Notes under the pieces: generated by a model
What the model saw: the letters and a program-made list of their open reading frames with translations, nothing else
Told to the model about the DNA's origin: nothing
Databases searched by the model: none
Made by a program: the position numbers and the translations under genes
IMG/VR virus record: IMGVR_UViG_3300032323_000924
Location: 1 to 21,673 of that record
Strand: one strand, 5' to 3'
Origin: a virus
Length of the DNA stretch: 21,673 bases
Shown: positions 3,314 through 20,654 of the stretch, one piece after another
Numbering within the stretch: position 1 is the first letter of the stretch
Layout of the letters: each line of letters begins with the position of its first letter

Positions 3314-3720
3314 TGGCTGACATTTCAACTCTACGCACCGCCATCGCCACGAACCTTGCAACAATCTCAGGGCTGCGCACATCGGCAACTGTGCCCGATC
3401 AGATCAACCCACCAATTGCCGTGGTCATGCCGGCATCCATCACTTACGATCTAGCCTTTCGGCGCAGCGGCGGCGATGAATATGAATTCAGCGTGATGGT
3501 GATTGTTGGCCGTGTTGATGAAAGAATGGCCCAAAATAAACTTGATGCATACTGCTCAGGAACTGGCGCGCAAAGTATCAAAGCCGCCATCGAATCAAAT
3601 AGGACTCTCGGCGGCGAAGCATTTGACTGCCGAGTTACGAGCCTGCGCTCATATAGCCAAGTCAGCGTTGCTGACGTCACTTACCTGTCAGCAGAATTTG
3701 CTGTTCAGGTTATCGCATAA
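3313..3720 (+). CDS. Putative tail terminator / head-tail joining protein
   Basis: This 135-aa protein has no catalytic motif. The N-terminus (ISTLRTAIATNLATISGL) is a helix like those opening tail-completion proteins of the lambda gpU / DUF3168 type. Alternating beta strands follow (YEFSVMVIVGRVDER, DVTYLSAEFAVQVIA), ending in a strand, as expected for this alpha/beta fold. Its place directly before the tail tube gene is where the tail terminator sits in most siphoviruses. The start is ATG 3313 in TGATG coupling with the connector. It probably caps the tail tube and joins it to the head. A head-closure protein is an alternative, since no other candidate for that role is visible in the window. 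Confidence 0.6.
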   Translation: MADISTLRTAIATNLATISGLRTSATVPDQINPPIAVVMPASITYDLAFRRSGGDEYEFSVMVIVGRVDERMAQNKLDAYCSGTGAQSIKAAIESNRTLGGEAFDCRVTSLRSYSQVSVADVTYLSAEFAVQVIA

Positions 3721-5151: not shown

Positions 5152-7271
5152 TGGCAAAGGCCGGCGCGCGCGTACACATTTATGGTGACTATGACGGCAC
5201 AGGTGTCAAGAAGGCTCAGCAAGACATCAGCAATTTTGGGCGTCAGGCTGACGGTTTTAGTAAGAGCTTCAAAGGCTCCATGGCTGGCGCCGGTGCTGCC
5301 CTTGGTGCCGCTTTTGGCGTGGGTGTTATTGGCGCCAATGTTTTGGATTTCTTTCAATCATCGATTACCGCTGCCCTTGCCGATGAGAAGGCGATGCGTT
5401 CTCTTGAGATCGCGCTGCAAAATGTTGGCGCAGCACATCAGACTGGCCCGATTGAAGGTTTCATTGACGCCTTGGCGCGCGAATCTGGCGTGGCCGATGA
5501 TCTTTTGAGGCCAAGTTTTCAGAGGCTAGTCACCGCCACAGGTGACGTTGCGTTGTCACAACAAAACTTGCAGCTCGCCATGGACATTTCAGCGGGCACG
5601 GGGCGCGATCTTGAGGCGGTCACCACTGCCCTTGCCCGTGCATTTACGGGATCAACAACAGGGCTTTCACGCCTTGGCGCTGGCCTTGATGCCAACTTGC
5701 TCAAGTCTAAAGACATGGACGCCATCACGACGGCGTTGTCTGAGAAGTTTGCCGGCCAAGCATCTGCCGCCGCTGATACCTACCAGGGCAAGATCAACAA
5801 ACTCAGCATTGCCGTTGATGAAGGCAAAGAACTTATTGGTGTGGCCCTGCTTAAGGCAGTAGACGACATCTCTGAGGCGTTCGGCGGCACTGGCGGCATG
5901 GCCGATGCGGTTGATGCTTCGGCGCAGGCAATGGCTGACTTCATCACTGGCGTTTCAATCAGCATCAATCCCCTTGCTGATTTCGTTGGTGGCATAAATC
6001 GGTCAACAGGATCAACATTTGATTTCGCCGATATTCTGAAAGTCGCGTACTTACCGTTTTCACCTCTGATCAATGCCACAGAAAAGTACATTGATTCTGG
6101 CGCTGATGCTCGGAAAAGAATGGAAGATCAATCGGCATCATCTGCCGTTTTGTCTGGCAGGCTCACCGGCTTGGCTGGGGATTATGTTCGCGCAACTGGC
6201 GCGGCAATAAACTTCGGTCGTTATCAGAACGCTCCTGATGGCCGTAGTGTTGTGGGTTTTTACGATGTAAACATCTCGGCGCAAAAGGCACTCGCTGACG
6301 CGCAGAACAATGTCAAGACCTTAACTGAGGACTATAACGAAAGCCTTAAGAAAGTTGGAACGTCCTCGGCTGGCGCAGCCAAAGACACGTTTACTTTCAA
6401 AGAGGCTTTGGAGCAAGTCAACAAGGAAGGCTTGGAGAAACTCAACGCCAACCTTAAAAAGGCGCAGGATGAGTTTGACGGTTTCCGTGATTCTGTTGCC
6501 GGCGGCCTGACCGGGCAACTTGACTTTGCGGGCGCCATTGATGACGCCAAAGAAGGCGGCACCGGAATTGTTGACGGGATCAGCGCGCAGGCTGGTGGCA
6601 TTGTTGCCTTTGGTGAGCAACTCAAGTTGTTGCTGTCTACATCACTAAGCCAAGAATCATTTGCTGCGGTGGCTGCACTATCAGCCGAGCGGGGCGCTGC
6701 CTTGGCGTCAGAGTTGTTGGGTGCTAATGGCGCAACTTTGATTGCTCAACTCAACACATCGGTTGCTGCCGTTAATACGGTGGCTGAGGCTGTCGGTTTG
6801 CAGTCAGCCGAAAAGTTCAAAAGTGCCGGCGTTAAGACAGCCGAGGACACCATCACGGGCTTCAAAGAATACATGGGTAAGGATGGCCTTGGCCGTAAGC
6901 GCCTGATGAACGTCATGGACAACCTCGCTGATGCTGCAACGCGTGAAGTTCGCATTGACGTTTTGGTGACTCGATCAGTGAATGAGGTTGTGAGCCGGAT
7001 TAGTTCAGGCACAACCAGCCTTACACCTATGGCTGCTGGCGGCCCTGTTGTCGGTGGACGCCCTTACCTTGTGGGAGAGGTCGGCCCTGAACTATTCATC
7101 CCATCGGCGTCAGGCAACATCGTGCCGAACAATGAAATGGGTGGCGCGTCCAATGTGTACTCCATCACGGTGAACACCGGCGTTGGCGATCCGCGCGTGA
7201 TCGGTGAGGAAGTTGTGAACGTGATCAGTCGTTTTGAGAAGGCCAACGGCGCCGTGTTTGCGCGGGCATGA
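5151..7271 (+). CDS. Tail tape measure protein
   Basis: At 706 aa this is the second longest protein here and has the features of a tape measure. A hydrophobic, Gly/Ala-rich segment lies at about residues 43-68 (MAGAGAALGAAFG...GANVLDFF). Long alanine-rich helical stretches follow (FQRLVTATGDVALSQQN, TALARAFTGSTTGLSRLG). Near the C-terminus the family-typical motif GGPVVGGRPYLVGEVGPE occurs at about residue 630. In relatives, tail length is about 0.15 nm per residue, giving a tail of roughly 100 nm if the whole chain is extended. There is no obvious lytic transglycosylase or peptidase domain. It overlaps the following minor tail gene in an ATGA. It acts inside the tail tube, sets tail length and is ejected into the cell with the DNA. 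Confidence 0.9.
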   Translation: MAKAGARVHIYGDYDGTGVKKAQQDISNFGRQADGFSKSFKGSMAGAGAALGAAFGVGVIGANVLDFFQSSITAALADEKAMRSLEIALQNVGAAHQTGPIEGFIDALARESGVADDLLRPSFQRLVTATGDVALSQQNLQLAMDISAGTGRDLEAVTTALARAFTGSTTGLSRLGAGLDANLLKSKDMDAITTALSEKFAGQASAAADTYQGKINKLSIAVDEGKELIGVALLKAVDDISEAFGGTGGMADAVDASAQAMADFITGVSISINPLADFVGGINRSTGSTFDFADILKVAYLPFSPLINATEKYIDSGADARKRMEDQSASSAVLSGRLTGLAGDYVRATGAAINFGRYQNAPDGRSVVGFYDVNISAQKALADAQNNVKTLTEDYNESLKKVGTSSAGAAKDTFTFKEALEQVNKEGLEKLNANLKKAQDEFDGFRDSVAGGLTGQLDFAGAIDDAKEGGTGIVDGISAQAGGIVAFGEQLKLLLSTSLSQESFAAVAALSAERGAALASELLGANGATLIAQLNTSVAAVNTVAEAVGLQSAEKFKSAGVKTAEDTITGFKEYMGKDGLGRKRLMNVMDNLADAATREVRIDVLVTRSVNEVVSRISSGTTSLTPMAAGGPVVGGRPYLVGEVGPELFIPSASGNIVPNNEMGGASNVYSITVNTGVGDPRVIGEEVVNVISRFEKANGAVFARA

Positions 7272-8491: not shown

Positions 8492-9658
8492 GTGCCATTT
8501 CCATTTGCTGCCGCTGAGGTTTTAACAGCGGCGAACCTGAACGCCATGATTGGCGCACCAACTCAGAACAATCAAACCGGCACCAGTTACACCCTCGCCT
8601 TGTTAGACGCGGGCAAAACGGTGACTTTGAGCAATGCATCAGCGGTGTCGGTCACGGTGCCATTGCAGTCAACTGTGGCATGGGCGGCCAACACTCAAAT
8701 CAACTTGCTCAACATTGGCGCTGGCCTAGTCACCATTGCCGGCGCCGGTGGCGTGACAATCAACGGAACGCCTTTGACACTTGCGACATCCAAGGGGGGA
8801 AGTCTTATTCGCACAGCGTCAAACACATGGACGTTCGTCCCTTTAGGTTCGGGCGTTAGTAACGCCAACTTCACCGATACAGCAACAGGCACCTATACCG
8901 ACGGCGGCATCAATTACAAATACTTGACTCTGACATCAACAGGATCGGTTACTTTTGATCGCGCCGGTTTCGCCGATATTCTCGTAATCGGGGGAGGAGC
9001 CGGTGGCGGTTCTTTTGGTGGTGGCGGTGGTGCTGGTGGTTATCTAGCAGTGACAAACGCATATTTTGAAGCCACTGCTCAGACGGTAGTGATTGGCGCT
9101 GGTGGCGCGGGTGCTACTGCTGCAAGTTTAGTCAGAGGCGTCAACGGTTCAACGAGTCGCTGTGGAAATTATTATGGAGTGGGCGGCGGCGCTGGCGGTG
9201 GTCAAAGCGCTTCGTTTGAGGCCGGTTTCTTTGGTGGTTCCGGTGGTGGCGCTAGTCAAAACGCCGCCGGTGGTGCTGGCACATCAGGTCAAGGTTTTGC
9301 GGGTGGTGGCGCGTTTACAAGTGGCGGCAACTCTGCCGGCGGCGGCGGCGGTGGTGCTAGTGCCGTTGGAGTGACAGGTGTCACTGGGCCAATTGGTGGC
9401 GCTGGCGGCGCAGGAACTGCATCCACTATCACGGGTACAAGTGTGACCCGTGGCGGTGGTGGTGGTGGCGGTTCACGCTCAGGCACTGCGGGCGCTGCGG
9501 GCGCTGGTGGTGGCGGCGCTGGCACTAATAACGACACTAATGGCGGCGCAGGAACAATCTCCACCGGCGGCGGCGGTGGCGGTAGCGGCTACGCATCATC
9601 CGGTGGTGCTGGCGGTGCCGGTGGTTCGGGAATCGTAATCATAAGGGTGGTTGTGTAA
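8492..9658 (+). CDS. Glycine-rich tail fibre/adhesin protein
   Basis: The 388-aa protein has two parts. Residues 1-155 form a beta-rich attachment domain. It starts MPFPFAAAEVLTAANLNAM, a phrase common at the N-terminus of phage tail proteins, and continues through repeated 'TVTLSNASAVSVTVP' strands. From about residue 160 a glycine-rich domain follows, with runs of GGGG and GGAGG spaced by short hydrophobic strands (ILVIGGGAGGG), ending in GGSGIVIIRVVV, the usual C-terminus of the phage glycine-rich domain family. Such poly-glycine helix bundles form the receptor-binding tips of T-even-type adhesins. The GTG start at 8492 has AAAGGAAC a few bases upstream. It probably carries receptor specificity. 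The repetitive DNA is a recombination-prone region for switching it. Confidence 0.75.
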   Translation: MPFPFAAAEVLTAANLNAMIGAPTQNNQTGTSYTLALLDAGKTVTLSNASAVSVTVPLQSTVAWAANTQINLLNIGAGLVTIAGAGGVTINGTPLTLATSKGGSLIRTASNTWTFVPLGSGVSNANFTDTATGTYTDGGINYKYLTLTSTGSVTFDRAGFADILVIGGGAGGGSFGGGGGAGGYLAVTNAYFEATAQTVVIGAGGAGATAASLVRGVNGSTSRCGNYYGVGGGAGGGQSASFEAGFFGGSGGGASQNAAGGAGTSGQGFAGGGAFTSGGNSAGGGGGGASAVGVTGVTGPIGGAGGAGTASTITGTSVTRGGGGGGGSRSGTAGAAGAGGGGAGTNNDTNGGAGTISTGGGGGGSGYASSGGAGGAGGSGIVIIRVVV

Positions 9659-11896: not shown

Positions 11897-12151
11897 TTAT
11901 ATTTCGTTTGTCTCCACAAGGTCAATGGTGCTCGAACGTCGCTTGTCATCCATGCCCTTGATTACTCGAGCCACCGTTTGCCGATGCCATTTAACCGCTG
12001 TGGCGATCTGGCGCTGCGTTGCCCCATTGTTGTGGGCGGCGCGGATCAGGGCGGCAGTTTCGTTGAAGCGTTTGCGCTCATTAGCTTTGGCTATGGCGTA
12101 GGCGTTGCCTTGGCATTGCAGGGCTAGTAGATCGCCAGTTGATGCGGTCAT
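11897..12151 (-). CDS. Small helix-turn-helix DNA-binding protein
   Basis: The 84-aa protein ends the leftward operon. Residues about 36-65 (FNETAALIRAAHNNGATQRQIATAVKWHRQTVARVI) form a resolvase/MarR-like helix-turn-helix: a leading helix, then GATQRQIA as the second helix and HRQTVARVI as the recognition helix. A charged tail follows. I start it at ATG 12151 with a GGGGGG purine run just upstream; a longer reading from 12223 lacks such a site. Its start overlaps the stop of the preceding gene (12148). It may regulate this operon or the divergent early genes. It is the only regulator-like gene on this strand. Confidence 0.75.
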   Translation of the reverse strand: MTASTGDLLALQCQGNAYAIAKANERKRFNETAALIRAAHNNGATQRQIATAVKWHRQTVARVIKGMDDKRRSSTIDLVETNEI

Positions 12152-12300
12152 GATGCCCCCCACATTTGTGCAAGTTCTTGCGCTGTTGGCATGTATCGTC
12201 CTGCGGGACTTTTCGCCCAACATTCAATGCAAACATCGCCGGGAAATAATTCTGTCCACTTGGTCATCGTGGCGCATAACGCGCAATTCTTGTCCTTCAT
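12148..12300 (-). CDS. Small zinc-ribbon-like protein (50 aa)
   Basis: The protein starts at ATG 12300 in ATGA overlap with the upstream gene's stop (12297-12299) and runs 50 aa. Two Cys pairs, CALC near residue 6 and CIEC near residue 24, suggest a small zinc ribbon. A helical end (TAQELAQMWGAS) follows. A longer reading from 12354 would lie fully inside the neighbour's coding region without a ribosome site, so the short start is preferred. Function unknown. Confidence 0.65.
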   Translation of the reverse strand: MKDKNCALCATMTKWTELFPGDVCIECWAKSPAGRYMPTAQELAQMWGAS

Positions 12301-12587
12301 GCTGTCACCCAATCGGTTAGCACAACGTAACCGCCGTGTTCGGCCGTGTCCCACAAAACTTCATGTTGGAAACCGTGCGCGGTTAAGTAGGACGTGAACA
12401 GAATGCAAGCGGCGGCGCCGGGCTCTAGCCAATAAACGCGACCCCAATGATATGAAGGTGCTTCGTTGTCGGTCTTGACTGATTCAAAGCGTCCATCTTG
12501 GCTGGCCCAATCTTTGCCCCATGCCATTGATGAAATTGCTAAACGTTCCGCATCCTCTGCTGTCATGTCAATAACTATGGCGCTCAT
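12297..12587 (-). CDS. Hypothetical protein of the leftward operon (96 aa)
   Basis: This is a 96-aa acidic protein with no membrane segment. It has an N-terminal helix (TAEDAERLAISSMAWGKDW), a Trp/Tyr-rich middle (YHWGRVYWLEPGAAACIL) and a C-terminal strand (GGYVVLTDWVTA). I recognise no family. ATGA overlaps link it to the gene on each side, so it is probably translated with them from one message. Small proteins in such isolated counter-strand operons are often accessory or host-directed, but nothing in the sequence proves this. Confidence 0.65.
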   Translation of the reverse strand: MSAIVIDMTAEDAERLAISSMAWGKDWASQDGRFESVKTDNEAPSYHWGRVYWLEPGAAACILFTSYLTAHGFQHEVLWDTAEHGGYVVLTDWVTA

Positions 12588-12757
12588 GCTGTCACAGCCA
12601 CAGCATCGTCACGCGTTGCGTATTGCGCAACGAACATGTCATCCATGTCAAACACGAACCACGCGCCGGCGATCTCTTTGATCATGTTTCCGGCTGGCGT
12701 GAATGTGAACATGCCACCGTCAATTGACTTGACCCAGTGGAGTTGTGTTGTGTTCAT
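12584..12757 (-). CDS. Small protein, first gene of the leftward operon (57 aa)
   Basis: Reading the minus strand from ATG 12757 gives an uninterrupted 57-aa protein that opens MNTTQLHWVKSIDGGMFTF and ends ATRDDAVAVTA, with the stop at 12584-12586 overlapping the next ATG (12585-12587). A GGGGAAC ribosome site lies 5-11 bases upstream. The tight coupling and good ribosome site argue that it is real despite its size. It looks like a compact beta-alpha domain with IKEIAGAWFVFDMDDMFVAQ in the middle; I know no family for it. Confidence 0.65.
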   Translation of the reverse strand: MNTTQLHWVKSIDGGMFTFTPAGNMIKEIAGAWFVFDMDDMFVAQYATRDDAVAVTA

Positions 12758-14287: not shown

Positions 14288-14714
14288 CCCTTCCAAAAAT
14301 AAAGGCACCGCTGCCGAAACCGCTGTGGTGCGTCACGCGTGGGCGCAAGGCTTCACCGATGCCGAACGCATCGCACTGAGTGGAGCCAACGACCAGGGTG
14401 ATGTTGTCTTAATGCGTGATCCAAAGATCATTATCGAGGTGAAGGCTGGCAAGGCGGCACAAACGGCATCACTTGGCCAGATTAGTAAGTGGCTCGATGA
14501 GGCGCAGCGCGAACGCGACAACGCGGGCGCGGTGCACGGTTTCCTGTTCGTGCAACGGCAAGGCTTTGGCACCTCACGCGTGGGCAGCTGGGAATGCTGG
14601 ACGCTCAGCGACGATCACGGCGCGTTCACCGATTATGGCGACAGTTTTAACACCATCATGGTCAGCGTGGATGACATGTTCGAGGCAATCAAGGAGCGTT
14701 ATGTTTCAACTTAG
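14280..14714 (+). CDS. Holliday-junction-resolvase-like PD-(D/E)xK nuclease
   Basis: The 144-aa protein has the order seen in Hjc-type resolvases: a basic start (SKNKGTAAETAV, with E13), then a helix, RIALSGANDQGDVVL (D41), then KIIIEVKAGK (E53, K55), which completes the PD-(D/E)xK active site. In the known family the enzyme is a homodimer that cleaves four-way junctions. Phages use such enzymes to clear replication and recombination intermediates before packaging. It precedes WhiB, overlapping it by 14 bases, and lies in the same operon as the Cas4-like exonuclease, consistent with a recombination module. The start at ATG 14280 was chosen because the family begins just there; the longer frame from 14202 adds 26 unrelated residues. 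Confidence 0.75.
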   Translation: MANPSKNKGTAAETAVVRHAWAQGFTDAERIALSGANDQGDVVLMRDPKIIIEVKAGKAAQTASLGQISKWLDEAQRERDNAGAVHGFLFVQRQGFGTSRVGSWECWTLSDDHGAFTDYGDSFNTIMVSVDDMFEAIKERYVST

Positions 14715-14958
14715 ATACATCGAAAGCGACAAGGGTGACGTGCATTGGCGGTTGCGGGCTGCATGTCGTAACTCTGACCCAGAGCTGTTCATGCCGCATA
14801 GCAGATTCGCGCAGGAATATCGCGTGGCCGTGGAGATTTGTCAGGGCTGTGAAGTACGTTCACAATGTCTCGAAGTAGGCAAGCAAGGCCGTGAAACCAC
14901 TGGGGTTTGGGGCGGCGTTTTATTTCAATCGAATGGGGAACAATATGAAGCAAGTTGA
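14701..14958 (+). CDS. whiB: WhiB-family [4Fe-4S] transcription factor
   Basis: The 85-aa protein has the four Cys ligands of WhiB: C22 (RAACRNSDPELF), C47 and C50 (EICQGCEVRSQC) and C56. The diagnostic GVWGG turn at residues 68-72 follows. The spacing C-x24-C-x2-C-x5-C is the family's. In Actinobacteria such proteins bind an iron-sulphur cluster and the principal sigma factor and so redirect transcription. Phage versions can switch early to late genes or modify host expression. The start is ATG 14701 within the resolvase gene; the much longer frame upstream is out of register with any family. The C-terminal basic DNA-binding segment usual after GVWGG is reduced here (LFQSNGEQYEAS), so it may act through sigma alone. 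Confidence 0.93.
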   Translation: MFQLRYIESDKGDVHWRLRAACRNSDPELFMPHSRFAQEYRVAVEICQGCEVRSQCLEVGKQGRETTGVWGGVLFQSNGEQYEAS

Positions 14959-15235
14959 GTTGGACACGCTGACAACTTACGTCTGGGCGTTGAAGCAGTT
15001 GAAGGCTGACCGCGCCGACATTGATGAACAGATTGAACACGCTGAGGCTTTGATCAAAGATGCACTGGGTGATGCAGAGGTTGGGACCATCGGCGGCGAG
15101 CCTGTAATTAAATGGACGCACGTCATATCGCAGCGATTCGATCAAAAGGCAGCCAAGGCACTATTGACCGATGACCAAGTGGCTGCCTGTACGAAGCCCA
15201 GCGAGTCGCGCAGGTTCACGATTGTTGAAGTCTGA
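14945..15235 (+). CDS. Probable accessory subunit of the adjacent Cas4/RecB-like exonuclease
   Basis: The 96-aa protein has a coiled-coil helix (TTYVWALKQLKADRADIDEQIEHAEALIKDAL), a hairpin (VGTIGGEPVIKWTHVISQRFD), then QKAAKALLTDDQVAACTKPSESRRFTIVEV. The last part, with a helix and 'S-x-x-R-x-F-x-V' end, resembles the C-terminal domain that follows YqaJ-type viral recombinase nucleases. Here it is a separate gene directly before the nuclease, with TGATG overlap. It starts at ATG 14945 after GGGGA (14935-14939). The split arrangement suggests a two-subunit exonuclease. The function is inferred from the partner gene. Confidence 0.6.
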   Translation: MKQVELDTLTTYVWALKQLKADRADIDEQIEHAEALIKDALGDAEVGTIGGEPVIKWTHVISQRFDQKAAKALLTDDQVAACTKPSESRRFTIVEV

Positions 15236-15984
15236 TGGGCAAACTCAAAGAAACCGTGTGTTTGGACTCAACGCCCTTCGATGTTGCGACCACGCTTATT
15301 ACACAGGTGAAAGAGTATTCTGCATGGTCACCACGTTCCCAACAAACCATGATTGGTGCCAGCGAAATCGGCACACCGTGTTCGCGCCGGTTGGCGTACA
15401 AGCTGCTGGAAGTTGAGCCGGTCAACACTGACAGCGACCCGTGGCCTGCCATCGTTGGCACGAGCGTTCACTATTACTTGGAACGTGCGTTCAAGAAACA
15501 CCCCGACTACATGACCGAGGTCAAGGTGGTGTTGGAACCGTGGACGAAAGGCACCGCTGACCTTGTGCATCTGCCAAGCAAAACCGTCATTGATCACAAG
15601 GTCGTTGGAGCCACCGCATTGAAAACATACAAGGCCAAGGGCATGTCTGCGCAGTATCGGGTGCAACTCAACATGTACGCCTTGGGGCTACGCTTGCAAG
15701 ACATTGAGATTGACAACATTGCCGTGATGTTCTGGTCACGTTCGGGAATGATGCGCGACGCCTTTTCGATAACGGAGCCTTATGACGAAACATTGGTTGA
15801 TCAAAGTTTTGCCCGGTTCGATGCAATAAAGGCAATGACAGCGATGGGAACAATGGCGTTGCCGTTGATCCCAACGACACCGACACACTGCCTGTACTGC
15901 CCCAACTACTTGCCGATGTCTACAGATATGACATTGGCTTGCAACGGCGTGAAAACCGTTGATCCAACCCAACCCACCGAATGA
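15235..15984 (+). CDS. Cas4/RecB-family PD-(D/E)xK exonuclease with probable Fe-S cluster
   Basis: The 249-aa protein shows the RecB-like nuclease core: H in GTSVHYYLERAF, D109 in KGTADLVH, and D120 and K122 in VIDHKVVG. A conserved Gln helix follows, QYRVQLNMYALGL, as in Cas4 and AddB nuclease domains. Four Cys are placed as in Cas4: C49 (GTPCSRRLAY) near the N-terminus and C219, C222 and C236 (CLYCPNY...ACNG) at the C-terminus, probably holding a 4Fe-4S cluster. It likely resects DNA ends for recombination-dependent replication. There is no sign of CRISPR arrays or cas1/cas2, so a CRISPR role is not suggested. It is followed by the ssDNA-binding candidate. Confidence 0.85.
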   Translation: MGKLKETVCLDSTPFDVATTLITQVKEYSAWSPRSQQTMIGASEIGTPCSRRLAYKLLEVEPVNTDSDPWPAIVGTSVHYYLERAFKKHPDYMTEVKVVLEPWTKGTADLVHLPSKTVIDHKVVGATALKTYKAKGMSAQYRVQLNMYALGLRLQDIEIDNIAVMFWSRSGMMRDAFSITEPYDETLVDQSFARFDAIKAMTAMGTMALPLIPTTPTHCLYCPNYLPMSTDMTLACNGVKTVDPTQPTE

Positions 15985-15995
15985 GAGGAAACACC

Positions 15996-16403
15996 ATGTC
16001 AGTTTGGGACGATCCCGAAATGCGCATTGCCAGCGATTACGTTTCATTCAACGAGATCGGCGACACCGTCACCGGCGTTGTCACCGGCGTGTATGCACAC
16101 CGTTTCGATGACGGCAAAGTTGTGCCAAAGATAATGCTCAATACCGCCGATGGCGAGGTTGCCCTGACCGCTGGGCAGGTTCGACTCAAGGCCGAGCTGT
16201 CAGAGAAGCGCCCCGATGTTGGGGATACGTTGACGGTGACGTTGACGGAGATCGAAAAGCGCGCTGGCGGCAAGACGCTCAAGCACTTTGATGTCAGCGT
16301 GGTCAAAGGTGGCAAGCCTGCGCCTGCCGCTGCTGCGCCGTCGTTGACGCCAGAGCAAATGCAAGCAATGGAGTTGCTGAAGGCATCCGGCCTGAGCGCA
16401 TAG
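15996..16403 (+). CDS. OB-fold-like candidate ssDNA-binding protein
   Basis: The 135-aa protein begins MSVWDDPEMRI and then forms a beta barrel-like string: YVSFNEIGDTVTGVVTGVYAHRF, then VPKIMLNTADGEVALTAGQVRLKAEL, GDTLTVTLTEIEKRAGGKTLKHFDVSVV. The C-terminal linker is Ala/Pro-rich and ends in a short helix (LTPEQMQAMELLKASGL). The same layout is common in actinobacterial-phage proteins encoded next to Cas4-like exonucleases and is usually thought to be a ssDNA-binding or recombination partner; I have not verified this by structure. The start is ATG 15996, with a GAGAGGAAAC ribosome site. The classic acidic SSB tail is absent. Confidence 0.6.
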   Translation: MSVWDDPEMRIASDYVSFNEIGDTVTGVVTGVYAHRFDDGKVVPKIMLNTADGEVALTAGQVRLKAELSEKRPDVGDTLTVTLTEIEKRAGGKTLKHFDVSVVKGGKPAPAAAAPSLTPEQMQAMELLKASGLSA

Positions 16404-16410
16404 CACAACC

Positions 16411-16445
16411 GGCGGCGGTGTCGTGTATGAGCCGCCACCGCCGCC
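16411..16445 (+). terminator. Hairpin after the ssDNA-binding candidate, possible U-tract-less terminator
   Basis: GGCGGCGGTG (16411-16420) pairs perfectly with CACCGCCGCC (16436-16445) around a 15-base loop. It begins 8 bases after the stop at 16403. No T-run follows, so termination is uncertain, but strong hairpins without U-tracts can work in actinobacteria, and a new promoter follows at 16489. Confidence 0.4.
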
Positions 16446-16488
16446 ACCCGTACGCAATCACGCACGTCTTGTTTGTGCCAACTTGCCA

Positions 16489-16524
16489 TTGACTAATTAC
16501 ACTAATGTAATTACACTAAGGGGA
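16489..16524 (+). promoter_or_regulatory. Promoter overlapped by tandem 12-base repeats (operator) before the RHH gene
   Basis: TTGACT (16489-16494) and TACACT (16512-16517) are separated by 17 bases, a good -35/-10 pair with five and four matches to consensus. TAATTACACTAA occurs twice (16494-16505 and 16508-16519), 14 bases apart, covering the spacer and the -10. Between them TTACA and TGTAA (16497-16501, 16506-16510) make an inverted repeat. The layout suits a repressor, and the next gene encodes a ribbon-helix-helix protein. Confidence 0.7.
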
Positions 16525-16742
16525 TGAGATTCATGACACGCGAAAGACCAAGCCGCCGAATTACGGCAGAGGCGAACGCACAACCATTACAAATTCGCAT
16601 ACCGCCAAGTCAACTGCAAGAAATCAGAGCTGCCGCGCAAGCATCTGATGTGACAGTGAGCGCGTTTATTCGTGCAGCGGCGAGGTCTGCAGCGTGGCAA
16701 GTATTGGGAAAGGAACCCAGTGAGCACAGCGATACAAACTAA
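16524..16742 (+). CDS. Ribbon-helix-helix (CopG/Arc-like) DNA-binding protein
   Basis: The 72-aa protein carries a ribbon-helix-helix domain: strand LQIRIPPSQ, helix LQEIRAAAQASD, a turn, then helix VSAFIRAAARSAAWQVLG. These proteins dimerise and read DNA with the paired strands, often repressing their own promoter through short tandem repeats. Such repeats overlap the promoter just upstream. The -10 box ends six bases before ATG 16524, so the message may start at the ATG and be leaderless. ATG 16533 is an alternative but would need the GGGG run that lies at the predicted transcription start. Its end overlaps the TnsA-like gene by 23 bases. Autoregulation is an inference. Confidence 0.78.
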   Translation: MRFMTRERPSRRITAEANAQPLQIRIPPSQLQEIRAAAQASDVTVSAFIRAAARSAAWQVLGKEPSEHSDTN

Positions 16743-17286
16743 ATATCAAGGCATCGAATATAGGTCGAGACTTGAGGCGCGTTGGGCATCATTTATGACA
16801 CGAATTGGTTGGCAGTTTACTTACGAGCCACTAGACGGCGATGGTTACATACCAGACTTTATAGTCCATGGTGAGCGTCCATTATTTATTGAAGTCAAAC
16901 CAGCAATGATTCGTCAAGATTATTATGAGCCTTGCGAAAAAATAGATAAGGGACTCATTCAATTTAAGCAAGACGTTTTGATTGTTGGAATACATCCTTT
17001 TATTGGCCCGGCAGGCTCTTGGGGTTATGAAGGCGCTGGTTTACTAGGTCAATATGAACCATACTGCCTTGAACCCAAGCCGCCTGCCTTTGATTGGGAT
17101 TTTGGGGCGTGGCACATCTGCACAACCTGTGATTCCATTTCATTAAATCATTACAACTACTACATCAGCGCAGTGTGTGGTCACGGTGAATGTGGCAAGA
17201 ATTTTGACTCACCACCGATCACACACATGAAAACTCTTTGGGCTGACGCTTGCAATGATGTCAAATGGAGAGGCACGTCAAAGTGA
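16720..17286 (+). CDS. TnsA-like PD-(D/E)xK nuclease with C-terminal Cys cluster
   Basis: The 188-aa protein reads YRSRLEARWASFMTRIG (E19), GYIPDFIVHGE (D46) and FIEVKPA (E58, K60), the Glu...Asp...ExK active site of the TnsA/phage endonuclease type, usually written 'S-x-L-E-A-x-W-A-x-F'. After the nuclease core a Trp/Tyr-rich segment leads to CTTC and CGHGEC, probably a zinc-binding site. The GTG start at 16720 has AAAGGAAC a few bases upstream. Relatives occur widely in actinobacterial phages near replication genes, where they may cut branched or host DNA. This one is a single gene without TnsB or TnsC, so a transposition role is not indicated. The prim-pol gene starts inside its stop. Confidence 0.78.
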   Translation: MSTAIQTKYQGIEYRSRLEARWASFMTRIGWQFTYEPLDGDGYIPDFIVHGERPLFIEVKPAMIRQDYYEPCEKIDKGLIQFKQDVLIVGIHPFIGPAGSWGYEGAGLLGQYEPYCLEPKPPAFDWDFGAWHICTTCDSISLNHYNYYISAVCGHGECGKNFDSPPITHMKTLWADACNDVKWRGTSK

Positions 17287-19442
17287 CAACCATTATGCAA
17301 TCGCAATCAACGAACCCACTACTGCAAAGCGCGCTGCACCTCGCCGACCTTGGCATCAATGTGATACCGCTTTGGTGGCCTGACGATGACATCTGCGCTT
17401 GCTCTGCCGGTGCAAACTGCGAAAGCCCTGCCAAGCATCCCATTGCTAAGTTAGTGCCTAATGGCTTAAATAATGCGACAACCAACGCCGTGACCATTCA
17501 GCAATGGTGGCAGCGATACCCCAGCGCCAACATAGGACTATGCACGGGTGGTGAAGTTGACGTCATTGATGTTGATGGGGCGATCCCGGCATATCAGGAA
17601 CTTATCGCTGACATTGGCGCGCCACAGTTCGTGGCAATGGTTCTCACTGGCAGAGGTGACGGCGGGCTTCATATCTATTGCACACCAGGTGGGAACAAAA
17701 CAATAACGAGTGGCAAGCATGGTTTGCCTAACAAAATTGAGGTGAAGGGCGCTGGCGGTTACGTTGTAGCACCGCCGTCTAAGCATGTCACTGGCGGCAC
17801 TTATACCTATTTAACCAAGATCACTGGCGAGATTCACGGGGACTTGGAACTTAGTCAATGGCTGGCCAAGTTAGATGTACCAGTTGTACAAGCCGCGACT
17901 GTCACGCCGATACGCCAACCGATGCACGACATCCCAGCGACCGCCGACAATGTGACCAAATACCGTAATGCGGTGATTGAGTCGGCGCGCAGCTGCGTAC
18001 TCAATGCAGGTGAAGGTGGGCGTTGGATGGGTTTAGCAACCGAGGCAGTGCCAAAGATCGCGCGAGGGATTGCCGGTGGCCTTATTGATCACCATATTGG
18101 TGTTTACGCCTTAGAGACTGCTGCCAGAGAGTCAGGGCTAAGCAGTAATGAGGTGGCGCGTATTCCTGAGTTAGTGGACATTATGTTGGCGCAAGGGATC
18201 AAACAACCAATTATGCCCCCACTGGACTCTGAGTGGGCTGTCAATTCATGGTTAGGTGAAATCCCAAAAGACGGAGCAGGTGACCTGCCTGCCGACTATG
18301 TGGAGATCGTTGAACTAACGCCTTACGAGCGCGCAGTGCGTGCCAAGTTTGCTGAAATGCGCGTAGTAGATGACGCCAAACAAATGCTGGCAACCATGAA
18401 GGCAGGGCAGGCGCCAGCGATGGACGGGCGCAGTCTAACTGATTTCTTAGCCGAGATTGAGGACATTGAGAAATATCGAGTTGAAAACATGTGGCCGGCG
18501 CAAGGTCGGGTGTTGCTCGCAGCGCAAGCCAAAGCCGGCAAGACCACAATGGTGGCGGCGAACTTGCTGCCATGCCTTGTGGATGGCGGCGAGTTCCTAG
18601 GCCGTTACAGCGTTGAAAAGGTTGCCCGGCGTGTTGTCTATCTGAACATGGAAGTGGGCACCCGAACGATGCGCCAATGGTTAAAGGATGCTGGCATTAT
18701 CGACACCGCTGCCATCACCGTGGCCAACCTGCGTGGCAAAGCATCGGCGCTGTCGCTGACCTCTGAGGCCGGTCGTAAGCACTTCGCTGCGTGGCTGCGA
18801 GATCGGGATGCCGAGGTGGTCATCCTTGACCCCTTAGCCCCTGCATTGGCATCCCTTGGCCTAGATGAGAACAGCAACGCGGACATTGCCACATTCTTTG
18901 GTTGGTGGTCAGAGGCGCTGACAATGGCCGGGGTCGTGGATGACATGGTGGTTCATCACGCTGGCCACGCCGGTGAACGATCACGGGGCGCGAGCCGCCT
19001 ACTGGACGAACCTGACGCCATTTGGACGCTCACAAAAGACTCTGACTTCACAGAGTCATCAGAGGCTAACCCGCTGCCAGCATCACCAACGCGCTACCTA
19101 AGCGCCTATGGGCGTGACGTCGAGCTGCCACCTGAGGCGCTGAAGTTTGATATGGGATCACGCCAGCTGACTTTGACCGGGCTGAGTCGCTCGGCGATGG
19201 GTCGAAACGATGTTGAAAGGGCGATCATTGGGCTGATGTCAGACCTGCGTTTGCGCACCAAGAATGAGATTGTCAAGATGATTAAAGGGGATCGGAACAA
19301 TGCATGGGATGCGTGTGATGCGCTTATTGATGCCGGAAAATTGATTCTTGCCGGCAAAAAAGGTGGCGGTTGGAACCTGCAATATGTCCCTGAAGTGCCT
19401 GTTGATCCACGCGATTTAATAGCCGAAAATGACCAAATCTGA
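17283..19442 (+). CDS. Bifunctional primase-polymerase / SF4-type AAA helicase
   Basis: This is the largest protein in the window, about 719 aa. Residues about 10-205 form an archaeo-eukaryotic-type prim-pol domain: a zinc-like CACSAGANCESPAKHP (C39, C41, C47), the catalytic VDVIDVDG near residue 93 and GGLHIYC near residue 128. From about residue 395 to 610 a RecA/RepA-like ATPase follows: Walker A AQAKAGKTT at about 413-421, Walker B EVVILDPL at about 511 and a VVHHAGH sensor region. A winged-helix-like end (VERAIIGLMSDLRLRTKNEIV) closes it. One protein thus primes, and perhaps extends, at the fork and unwinds DNA. The GTG start at 17283 overlaps the previous stop and has GAGAGG upstream; ATG 17295 is possible. 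Confidence 0.88.
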   Translation: MTTIMQSQSTNPLLQSALHLADLGINVIPLWWPDDDICACSAGANCESPAKHPIAKLVPNGLNNATTNAVTIQQWWQRYPSANIGLCTGGEVDVIDVDGAIPAYQELIADIGAPQFVAMVLTGRGDGGLHIYCTPGGNKTITSGKHGLPNKIEVKGAGGYVVAPPSKHVTGGTYTYLTKITGEIHGDLELSQWLAKLDVPVVQAATVTPIRQPMHDIPATADNVTKYRNAVIESARSCVLNAGEGGRWMGLATEAVPKIARGIAGGLIDHHIGVYALETAARESGLSSNEVARIPELVDIMLAQGIKQPIMPPLDSEWAVNSWLGEIPKDGAGDLPADYVEIVELTPYERAVRAKFAEMRVVDDAKQMLATMKAGQAPAMDGRSLTDFLAEIEDIEKYRVENMWPAQGRVLLAAQAKAGKTTMVAANLLPCLVDGGEFLGRYSVEKVARRVVYLNMEVGTRTMRQWLKDAGIIDTAAITVANLRGKASALSLTSEAGRKHFAAWLRDRDAEVVILDPLAPALASLGLDENSNADIATFFGWWSEALTMAGVVDDMVVHHAGHAGERSRGASRLLDEPDAIWTLTKDSDFTESSEANPLPASPTRYLSAYGRDVELPPEALKFDMGSRQLTLTGLSRSAMGRNDVERAIIGLMSDLRLRTKNEIVKMIKGDRNNAWDACDALIDAGKLILAGKKGGGWNLQYVPEVPVDPRDLIAENDQI

Positions 19443-19536
19443 TGTGTATGTATGGCATGTGTATTGGCAATACACTTATGTGTATGTATGACTATATAGG
19501 AATACATACCAATACACACACTTTCAGAGGTCAACC
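19443..19536 (+). promoter_or_regulatory. Repeat-rich gap: candidate replication origin or promoter/operator
   Basis: This 94-base gap is unlike the rest of the window. ATGTGTATGTATG occurs at 19442-19454 and 19478-19490. GTGTATTG and CAATACAC form a perfect 8-bp inverted repeat (19459-19475). GTATGTAT (19482-19489) faces ATACATAC (19502-19509) across an AT-rich core. GTGTATTGG also recurs inverted at 19509-19517. Iteron-like repeats next to a prim-pol/helicase gene suggest an origin. TTGGCA (19464-19469) 17 bases before TATGAC (19487-19492) could instead be a promoter with operators. Confidence 0.55.
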
Positions 19537-19896
19537 ATGACCAGAGCCACCACCTACAAAGCGCCGGCAAAACCCACCCCAAAACCCTGCCAGCGATGTC
19601 GCCGCTTGGTGCTCGCAGGACTTGACGCCAGCGCCGCCGCGTTTTCTGTTGTCATTGATGCCGAACCCCTGACCCGCGATGGTGAGCTGCTAATGATCGT
19701 TGCCGGGGTCAAAGTCTTTGCCACCAACTCGCGCAGCGAGATCCTGCGCCGTAGCCCCAGTGAAGTCATCGCCCACGGCGAGCACCTGACCATGCACCGT
19801 GAACACGACTGTGCCAATGCGACGCCGGCGCACCTAGTGGCCCCACCTAAATCGAAACCTCGACCAATCGCCAACGATGAGGAAGTGCAGTTTTGA
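19537..19896 (+). CDS. Cys/His-containing hypothetical protein
   Basis: The 119-aa protein has a CQRC pair near residue 18-21 and a His/Cys group near 92-96 (HREHDC), which may bind one zinc. A basic, proline-rich N-terminus (TTYKAPAKPTPKPC) precedes a compact middle with SVVIDAEPLTRDGELLMIV and a polar tail ending EEVQF. The start is ATG 19537, with an AGAGG ribosome site. The following gene starts inside its stop codon. The repeat-rich gap directly upstream may control it. No family recognised. Confidence 0.6.
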   Translation: MTRATTYKAPAKPTPKPCQRCRRLVLAGLDASAAAFSVVIDAEPLTRDGELLMIVAGVKVFATNSRSEILRRSPSEVIAHGEHLTMHREHDCANATPAHLVAPPKSKPRPIANDEEVQF

Positions 19897-20654
19897 TCAA
19901 CAACCTGGGTGAATGTCTGATCTGCCACCGATCAACGGAATCAATGACCTGTGGCCGGTGTGAATCAACAATGCGCAACCAGCTGGCAGACATGCCGAAA
20001 TACGCCGCCTTAGCGTCACAGAGGCTACAACCAAGGCAGGGTGGTAGCAGGGGAACCGAACGAGGCTTTGGGCTGTCTATGGCCGCCTTAGAGGCTTCCT
20101 GCGGCTATAACGCCACCGCCGTGCTGGAGAACTGGGTGAGAGACTGGCGCGAAACGTACAACTTGGTGCCGTACGGCGTGGCGACAGAGACCGTGCCCAA
20201 TGCCGAACTGTTGGCACACATCTGCGATTTCTTGCAAACATGGCTCAACCGCGCCTGCGCCGACCATCCGGCCATAGACCTATTCGCCGGGGAACTGCGC
20301 CAACAATGGGCCGCGATGCGTGAAGGCGCCAACGAAACGCCACCCAACTCCTGGGTCATCCCCTGCCCCGCCGACGTTGACACCGCCGACGGTATCGCCA
20401 CCTGCGGCAAGCCCATCAAGATAACCGATGTCGACCTTGAAAACCTCGTTAGTTGCCCCGGCTGCAAGACACATTGGAGAGTTGGCCGGCTGCTCTACGT
20501 TGGCGCCGCCACTGCCAACGGCGGCATTTACGTTGACGCCGAGGCCGCCAGTCAATACCTTGGCGTTAGTGAGCGCACCCTGCGTCAATGGGCCAAGGCC
20601 GGCAAGATCAAACGCGAACGCGGCAGATACGACATCACCGGGCTGACGGCGTGA
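19893..20654 (+). CDS. Zinc-ribbon and MerR-like HTH protein
   Basis: The 253-aa protein has an N-terminal zinc ribbon (C8, C11, C20 and C23 in CLIC...CGRC). A helical middle includes WVRDWRETYNL. A second Cys group lies near the C-terminus (CPAD...CGKP...CPGC), with an excisionase/MerR-type helix-turn-helix at the very end, AEAASQYLGVSERTLRQWAKAGKI, followed by a wing-like KRERGRYDI. Proteins with this outline are frequent in actinobacterial phages. It may regulate transcription or act in replication. The start is TTG 19893, overlapping the previous stop, with GAGGAAG upstream; no ATG or GTG nearby competes. GTGA overlap links it to the next gene. Confidence 0.75.
   Translation: MINNLGECLICHRSTESMTCGRCESTMRNQLADMPKYAALASQRLQPRQGGSRGTERGFGLSMAALEASCGYNATAVLENWVRDWRETYNLVPYGVATETVPNAELLAHICDFLQTWLNRACADHPAIDLFAGELRQQWAAMREGANETPPNSWVIPCPADVDTADGIATCGKPIKITDVDLENLVSCPGCKTHWRVGRLLYVGAATANGGIYVDAEAASQYLGVSERTLRQWAKAGKIKRERGRYDITGLTA

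Follow-up and report, generated by a model that had tools for sequence, protein, structure and literature searches.

A prim-pol/helicase gene and the repeats behind it

We analyzed a 21,673-nucleotide stretch of viral DNA (the window; positions 1 to 21,673 of IMG/VR record IMGVR_UViG_3300032323_000924), in which a cluster of short repeats lies directly 3' of a gene for a primase-polymerase (prim-pol)/helicase protein, the putative initiator gene. This open reading frame (ORF), at 17265-19442 on the plus strand, encodes 725 residues that PHROG assigns to DNA polymerase/primase. It carries a Prim-Pol domain (residues 23-184, 17331-17816; PF09250, 5.2e-29), a helicase domain of the AAA_25 family and RecA fold (residues 394-570, 18444-18974; PF13481, 2.5e-22, with AlphaFold and VIA-align), and a predicted C-terminal winged helix (19182-19439), the proposed reader of the repeats, placed by AlphaFold, VIA-align, and the boundary of a swap between two related loci described below. 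Between primase and ATPase, Pfam gave no match to a PriCT or Zn-binding domain at E 0.1.

The folds of the helicase and the winged helix are predictions, with the 17-row alignment A10 as AlphaFold input. The helicase and C terminus were modeled at a mean predicted local distance difference test score (pLDDT) of 82.7, and the best VIA-align matches of the helicase are RSF1010 RepA chains (1olo_B, Z 20.8, root mean square deviation 3.0 over 209 residues; 1g8y, 20.6; 1nlf, 20.2), with KaiC behind them at Z 19.2 and below. The last ~86 residues are predicted to run H-H-H-E-E (H, helix; E, strand), the order of a winged helix; taken alone, this domain has a pLDDT of 69.6 and is matched best in VIA-align by a winged helix (Z 10.8). 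A GDRN motif at 19287-19298 begins the third helix, the predicted recognition helix, in A10 and the AlphaFold model. By sequence, the 725-residue protein matched no solved structure at E 0.01, and its counterpart in L002 (L-numbers denote loci in our comparison set) matches a RecA chain.

The repeats occupy the 94-base gap between the stop codon of this gene (19442) and the start of a gene for a 119-residue protein (19537). A first-pass annotation had described an iteron-like cluster here, and all the repeats that it named are present in the sequence. The exact 13-mer ATGTGTATGTATG occurs at 19442-19454 and 19478-19490, 36 bases apart; GTGTATTG (19459-19466) and CAATACAC (19468-19475) form an inverted pair about a one-base center; GTATGTAT (19482-19489) and ATACATAC (19502-19509) form a second pair enclosing GACTATATAGGA; and a third inverted copy, CCAATACAC at 19509-19517, is the reverse of GTGTATTGG, a sequence with no further exact copy anywhere in the 21,673-base record. 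We refined the limits of the array to 19443-19518, the bases at 19519-19536 being, by eye, an apparent leader and ribosome-binding sequence.

Read as a word map, the gap holds six TGTGTATt/g-like words, each within one mismatch of TGTGTATT, in the order >><>[core]<<, where > and < denote plus and minus orientation. Iterons 1 (TGTGTATG, 19443-19450) and 2 (TGTGTATT, 19458-19465) lie on the plus strand and are followed by the inverted iteron 3 on the minus strand (19469-19476). Iteron 4, again TGTGTATG (plus strand, 19479-19486), and the inverted iteron 5 (minus strand, 19501-19508) form the left and right arms of a palindrome around the core ACTATATAGG (19491-19500), the proposed melting or priming site, and the inverted iteron 6 closes the array (minus strand, 19511-19518).

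At k = 8 the gap contains 13 pairs of 8-mers shared on either strand, where dinucleotide shuffles average 1.4 and none of 1000 gets to 13; at k = 7 there are 24 pairs (reached by 1 of 1000 shuffles) and at k = 9 there are 6 (9 of 1000). When 94-base segments were taken every 20 bases across the window (n = 1079), more 8-mer pairs were found only in two overlapping ones, starting at 9421 and 9441. Both fall inside the ORF of a glycine-rich protein, in a coding stretch at about 9260-9560. The palindrome score of the gap is not decisive alone, as 8 of 100 shuffles do as well. The first-pass claim that the DNA is AT-rich holds for the window, where the gap has 36% GC against 47-59% in 1-kb windows, and does not extend to the relatives, whose gaps range from 35% to 66% GC.

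A-T rich DNA yields short repeats easily, and the cores of several relatives are strong hairpins (single-strand folds of five relatives have z scores of -2.6 to -6.7), as might be expected of chance repeats or of a transcription terminator behind the helicase gene. Against such an origin of the array stand the shuffles at k = 8, the lack of any terminator-like site listed between 19323 and 19630, and the findings below of joint exchange with the winged helix and of copies changing in concert; together they make it extremely improbable.

Repeat arrays recur behind related helicases

We gathered relatives from viral contigs with the prim-pol, the helicase, and a 253-residue protein encoded farther downstream as queries, and took in three Kocuria loci (genome contigs), one Rhodococcus plasmid, and named phages; the helicase alone, as a single query against the viral contigs, gave no match. 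Two helicase types occur behind related prim-pols. Type I is found in the window and L008/L009 and, with other N-terminal parts, in L031-L033 and L047-L060, whereas type II is found in L002, L003, L007, L014, and L015.

For conservation in relatives, a check named in the first-pass annotation, 21 of 27 loci, including the window, proved repeat-rich directly 3' of the helicase stop (reached by ≤1 of 200 shuffles at k = 7). The near copies L003, L057, L062, and L063 were kept in this count and in the core count below, so the numbers of independent loci are smaller. Among the distant prim-pol loci L016-L028, the repeat scan covered L016 and L027. In two of the six exceptions, L034 and L060, the array sits before the stop, inside the coding sequence. 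These two iteron arrays lie within the 3' end of the helicase coding sequence, at about 6070-6160 in L034 and 6030-6150 in L060; lambda likewise has iterons within gene O. The densest repeats are also at or adjoining the stop in four Mycobacterium prophages (of five that matched), MinS1, Hendrix, Dagobah, and Verrucomicrobia phage P8625, with a shuffle control among these for L012 only. In P8625 (L071), the linear record ends in the CTATCGGCA repeats behind the primase/helicase stop (3478-3593).

We drew word maps for 20 loci, using one word per locus picked by score, without a chance control, and with cores set by hand for the window, L064, and L068. The maps of L007 and L014 begin with the window's order, >><>[core]<< (then >><), as do those of L032 and L052 (with one extra <). 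Close variants are L008 (>>><>[core]), L034 (>>><>[core]<><), L053 (>><<>[core]<<), L055 (>><>>[core]<>), L064 (>>><>>[core]<>><<), and L067 and L068 (>><<>[core]<><<); the order is also near that of the window in L012, L002, L031, and L047, and differs in L050, L056, L059, and L061. The word itself is TGTGTAT/TATGTAT with variants in the window, L031-L033, L047, L050, L052, and L053. Other loci use CATGTCT (L008), CTAGAGA (L055), GGTCACC (L056), TGCCCAGT (L059), ATTCCG/ATTCTG/ATTCCT (type II), or TGTTTC (Mycobacterium).

The core varies less than the word across loci. The pattern CCCT[AT]0-6AGGG, devised after seeing the gaps, lies no more than 250 bases from the stop in 19 of 32 loci (the near copies L061-L063 and L012/L067 among them) and turns up a single time in the remaining 258,762 bases. 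With an arbitrary spacer, CCCT-spacer-AGGG is unspecific, since it is as common as its reversed control (42 versus 43 in 12 whole records); the specific feature is the all-A/T spacer adjoining the helicase stop.

Repeats appear to be exchanged with the winged helix

Through the prim-pol and helicase, the DNA of L055 and L056 is 93.3% identical. Their match stops at L055 position 5849, 258 nt before the end of the helicase stop codon, and returns 160 nt past the stop at 97.8%. It breaks one base before the column taken as the start of the winged helix in A10 (5850), and between the prim-pol and the downstream gene this is the one long break, made up of the winged-helix codons and the gap. The two helicases are 93% identical, whereas the winged helices are 18% identical and the gaps have zero repeat k-mers in common. 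A second homology break between these loci, at L055 3642-3921, lies directly upstream of the prim-pol gene.

The window and L014 are 89.7% identical over 15000-16447, do not match over 16448-17327, and are 67% identical in the prim-pol; no match is seen over 18305-19535, which takes in the helicase and the repeats, and identity returns at 90.9% from 19536, at the next start codon. Between the window and L008, the helicases are 77% and the winged helices 33% identical, with 0.06 of words in common.

Across 14 loci, distance in the winged helix and distance in the words are correlated (Mantel r 0.64, p 0.0004), also when the helicase is given (r 0.57, p 0.0002), whereas helicase and words given the winged helix are not (r 0.01, p 0.45). 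The set comprises 14 of the 17 A10 rows, L009, L057, and L062 having been dropped as near copies, and L059 lies outside A10. In type II loci, six homologous sites keep their spacing while the word changes in concert, with ATTCCG in all the L002 copies, ATTCTG in L007, and ATTCCT in L014; six other listed sites are less clean in their copy change. Concerted change of this kind is the pattern expected of sites for one changing protein.

One pair runs counter to a simple correspondence: the window and L032 have helicases 61% identical and winged helices 23% identical, yet 0.50 of their words in common. Overall winged-helix identity is therefore not the whole story, and the recognition helix may weigh more in the choice of word. 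The motif G[DN]RN occurs in all 7 distinct A10 loci whose gap contains TATGTAT and in none of the 7 other distinct A10 loci. Window-like TATGTAT words also stand behind the same helicase type in L031, with a different prim-pol, and in L032, with no Prim-Pol match. We conclude from these comparisons that the repeats track the winged helix and neither the primase nor the next gene; related viruses seem to exchange them jointly with the small domain that probably reads them.

Genes downstream of the array

Two plus-strand genes follow the array. The first (19537-19896; ORF, DNA comparison, blastp) encodes the 119-residue protein, which has a CxxC motif; the match to L014 is back at 19536, just before it. 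The second (19893-20654) encodes the 253-residue protein, with a C-terminal helix-turn-helix (HTH; Pfam HTH_17) and no match in the phage collection. We compared the 119-residue protein by blastp with the next ORFs of 22 loci (L032, L052, L007, and some others fell outside this comparison) and found relatives behind the arrays of L002, L008, L014, L047, L055, L056, L059, and L060 (E 4e-6 or better). Identities are 95% in L014, 53% in L008, 51% in L002, and 26-30% in L055, L056, L059, L060, and L047, the value for L047 being 30% over 50 residues. A match in L053 spans 12 residues, and the next ORF of L031 gave no match at E 1. By eye, the first ORF behind the array of Dagobah (L066) resembles the CxxC protein. 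With CxxC relatives behind many arrays, the module may be one of initiator, origin, and CxxC protein, the last as a conserved partner in replication.

The first-pass annotation had allowed that the same DNA might be a promoter with operators for this Cys/HTH pair, bound by one of the two proteins. The repeats do lie directly upstream of both genes, one of which has the HTH_17 match, and the arrays of eight other loci also precede relatives of the 119-residue protein. Near-identical genes nevertheless follow different repeats: L014 keeps both the Cys protein (95% identical) and the HTH protein (98%) with other words, and L055 and L056 differ in words before downstream DNA that is 97.8% identical. 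Conversely, like repeats stand before very different neighbors in L047 and L031, and a scan for promoters of the sigma-70 type listed no site in the gap. Since near-identical downstream genes follow different repeats, we regard the operator reading as weakened and quite unlikely. Because L014 and the L055/L056 pair keep their downstream DNA and differ in words, the neighboring gene does not set the words.

A probable replication origin

We consider it probable that the repeat cluster is the replication origin of the virus, with the winged helix at the C terminus of the upstream gene's product as its reader. The origin proposed in the first-pass annotation thus gains support from the recurring arrays and their joint exchange with the winged helix. 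The array, its place, its recurrence behind related helicases, and its exchange with the winged helix are directly visible in the DNA, and a start of replication at the array is what these features most likely reflect.

The exchange and covariation suggest that the winged helix binds the words, which would seat the fused RepA-like helicase on both flanks of the core. By analogy with P4 alpha, RSF1010, and pRN1, the core would then melt or extrude, and the N-terminal prim-pol would prime on the exposed strand. The whole would work as the RSF1010 trio RepC-RepA-RepB' within one chain.

Several observations weigh against this origin reading. GC skew, proposed in the first-pass annotation as a check, lends it no support: the window switches from plus to minus at the array, opposite to a bidirectional origin, its cumulative skew peaking at about 18.5-20 kb, and among 26 loci the switch is plus to minus in 8, the reverse in 0, and without a sign change in 18. 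Folded as a single strand, the window gap does not stand out (z -1.4; 16 of 200 shuffles fold as well), and its core is a looser version that fails the strict CCCT[AT]0-6AGGG pattern. No array was found behind the helicase stop in L058, despite a clear type I helicase, or in L010, L069, and L070; repeats are weak after the stop in L035 and in L011, where a strong array of another word lies ~650 bases farther on. The 119-residue relatives behind many arrays tie the array to its neighbor as well. Foldseek, whose top 50 were KaiC and other RecA-fold chains, ranked KaiC over RepA. Finally, the Mantel measure, the pattern for the core, the word maps, and the set of loci were settled on after the gaps had been inspected, and relatedness is only partly controlled.

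A further point against it is that our comparisons indicate a likely cognate pair, not initiation, and the same pattern would be expected if the array were bound by the initiator's winged helix but served as a control site for copy number, autoregulation, or partition. Winged-helix proteins and repeats also form partition and copy-control sites, and TubR, a centromere binder, is among the winged-helix fold matches. We nevertheless saw no second site with these words in the record, no search aimed at partition genes having been made, and an origin, actual or proposed, occupies the corresponding position in PICI (phage-inducible chromosomal islands), SCCmec (staphylococcal cassette chromosome mec), and pRN1 (PMC6092414, PMC7581432, PMC4234260). 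A control site is accordingly unlikely, while an origin read by the winged helix accounts for the array better.

Comparison with known replication systems

In Staphylococcus aureus pathogenicity islands (SaPI) and PICI, the origin lies directly 3' of the initiator gene, with iterons flanking a core (PMC6092414, PMC7581432), and SaPI Rep reads it through its C-terminal domain (PMC7581432). The window is alike in that its array is immediately 3' of the initiator/helicase gene, the gap beginning at the stop codon, and has iterons on both sides of the core, >><>[ACTATATAGG]<<. It differs in its helicase, which is of the RecA fold (AAA_25) and nearest to RSF1010 RepA, whereas the SaPI Rep class is D5-like/SF3; many relatives differ too in having a GC-flanked palindrome as core (a short A/T center within C and G runs, 19 of 32). 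The helicase of P4 alpha, too, is of a class other than that found here. P4 alpha is similar in that a single protein combines the primase, the helicase, and a winged helix that binds the origin, with repeats as sites, and differs in its Toprim-type primase (PMC4234260).

RSF1010 (IncQ) shares a RepA-type helicase fold (predicted here), a primase, and iterons read by an initiator (PMC4234260). Its oriV has small stem-loops for priming (ssiA/ssiB; PMC4234260), to which the palindromic core of the relatives may be compared, the fold of the window gap having the z of -1.4 given above. RepA, RepB', and RepC are separate proteins there, whereas here one polypeptide is found and the proposed reader is its C-terminal domain. 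AAA_25 has been described as close to RepA (PMC8965321). ORF904 of pRN1 likewise has an N-terminal prim-pol and a C-terminal winged helix (predicted here), with the origin downstream of its gene (PMC4234260), where the window has its repeat-rich putative one, but its helicase is of SF3 and its site a ~100-base stem-loop without iterons, in contrast to the AAA_25/RecA fold and iterons of the window. SCCmec Cch2 binds direct repeats directly downstream of its own helicase gene (PMC7581432); its helicase is of the D5 family, with a separate polymerase/primase pair. PrimQH proteins have the same order of primase, ATPase, and winged helix, and the C-terminal winged helices of such primase fusions, some with RepA-type helicases, have been suggested to read origins, to our knowledge without cognate sites being given (PMC5862659); they may differ in PriCT, for which the window protein has no Pfam match at E 0.1. 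Other origins have been described in mycobacterial prophages (PMC7157519), as has a RepA_N origin in PLE (PMC7145576).

The general logic is thus already known from SaPI/PICI, P4, and pRN1. New are the helicase class, the GC-flanked core, the common copy order, and the observed cassette exchange; a literature search that was thin on subscription journals found no earlier account of such origins in AAA_25-type phages in the portions of the literature accessible to it. We give roughly even odds to a broader proposal, that the layout >><>[CCCTATAGGG-like core]<, with a freely changing word, is common to a broad class of phage origins, mainly actinobacterial ones, and that ~85 winged-helix codons and ~160 bases of iterons pass between phages as a unit. 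If so, a phage would keep its replication enzymes and neighbor genes while the origin recognized by its initiator changes, and a swap would change its replication identity in one step. The L055/L056 pair, a natural domain-and-site swap in which initiator specificity is directly testable, suggests that such phages could alter replication compatibility through a small cassette exchange. For uncultured phages and many actinobacterial ones, no origin is known; should the reading be right, it could be found from sequence behind the helicase gene, also in named records, namely, the four Mycobacterium prophages, Microcystis phage MinS1, Streptomyces phage Dagobah, Microbacterium phage Hendrix, and Verrucomicrobia phage P8625.

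Other features of the window and its relatives

A gene for a WhiB-like regulator at 14698-14955 (PF02467, 3.7e-17) points to an actinobacterial host for the virus. At 46-2004, the window encodes a 653-residue protein with GT1-type and GT2-type glycosyltransferase matches. By eye, a small block of minus-strand ORFs at 11897-12757 stands out among mainly plus-strand ORFs, with the best sigma-70-like site of our scan at 11925-11896.

The record of phage MinS1 (L064), which names Microcystis as host, carries a protein annotated as Lsr2 family and a helicase-iteron module resembling those of actinobacterial phages; its host label may be worth checking. L011 is the 15.9-kb Rhodococcus plasmid pDJL3, which carries a terminase, an integrase, and the helicase and looks like a phage-plasmid or satellite; its array, a dense run of AGTGCGTT, lies at about 5760-5890.

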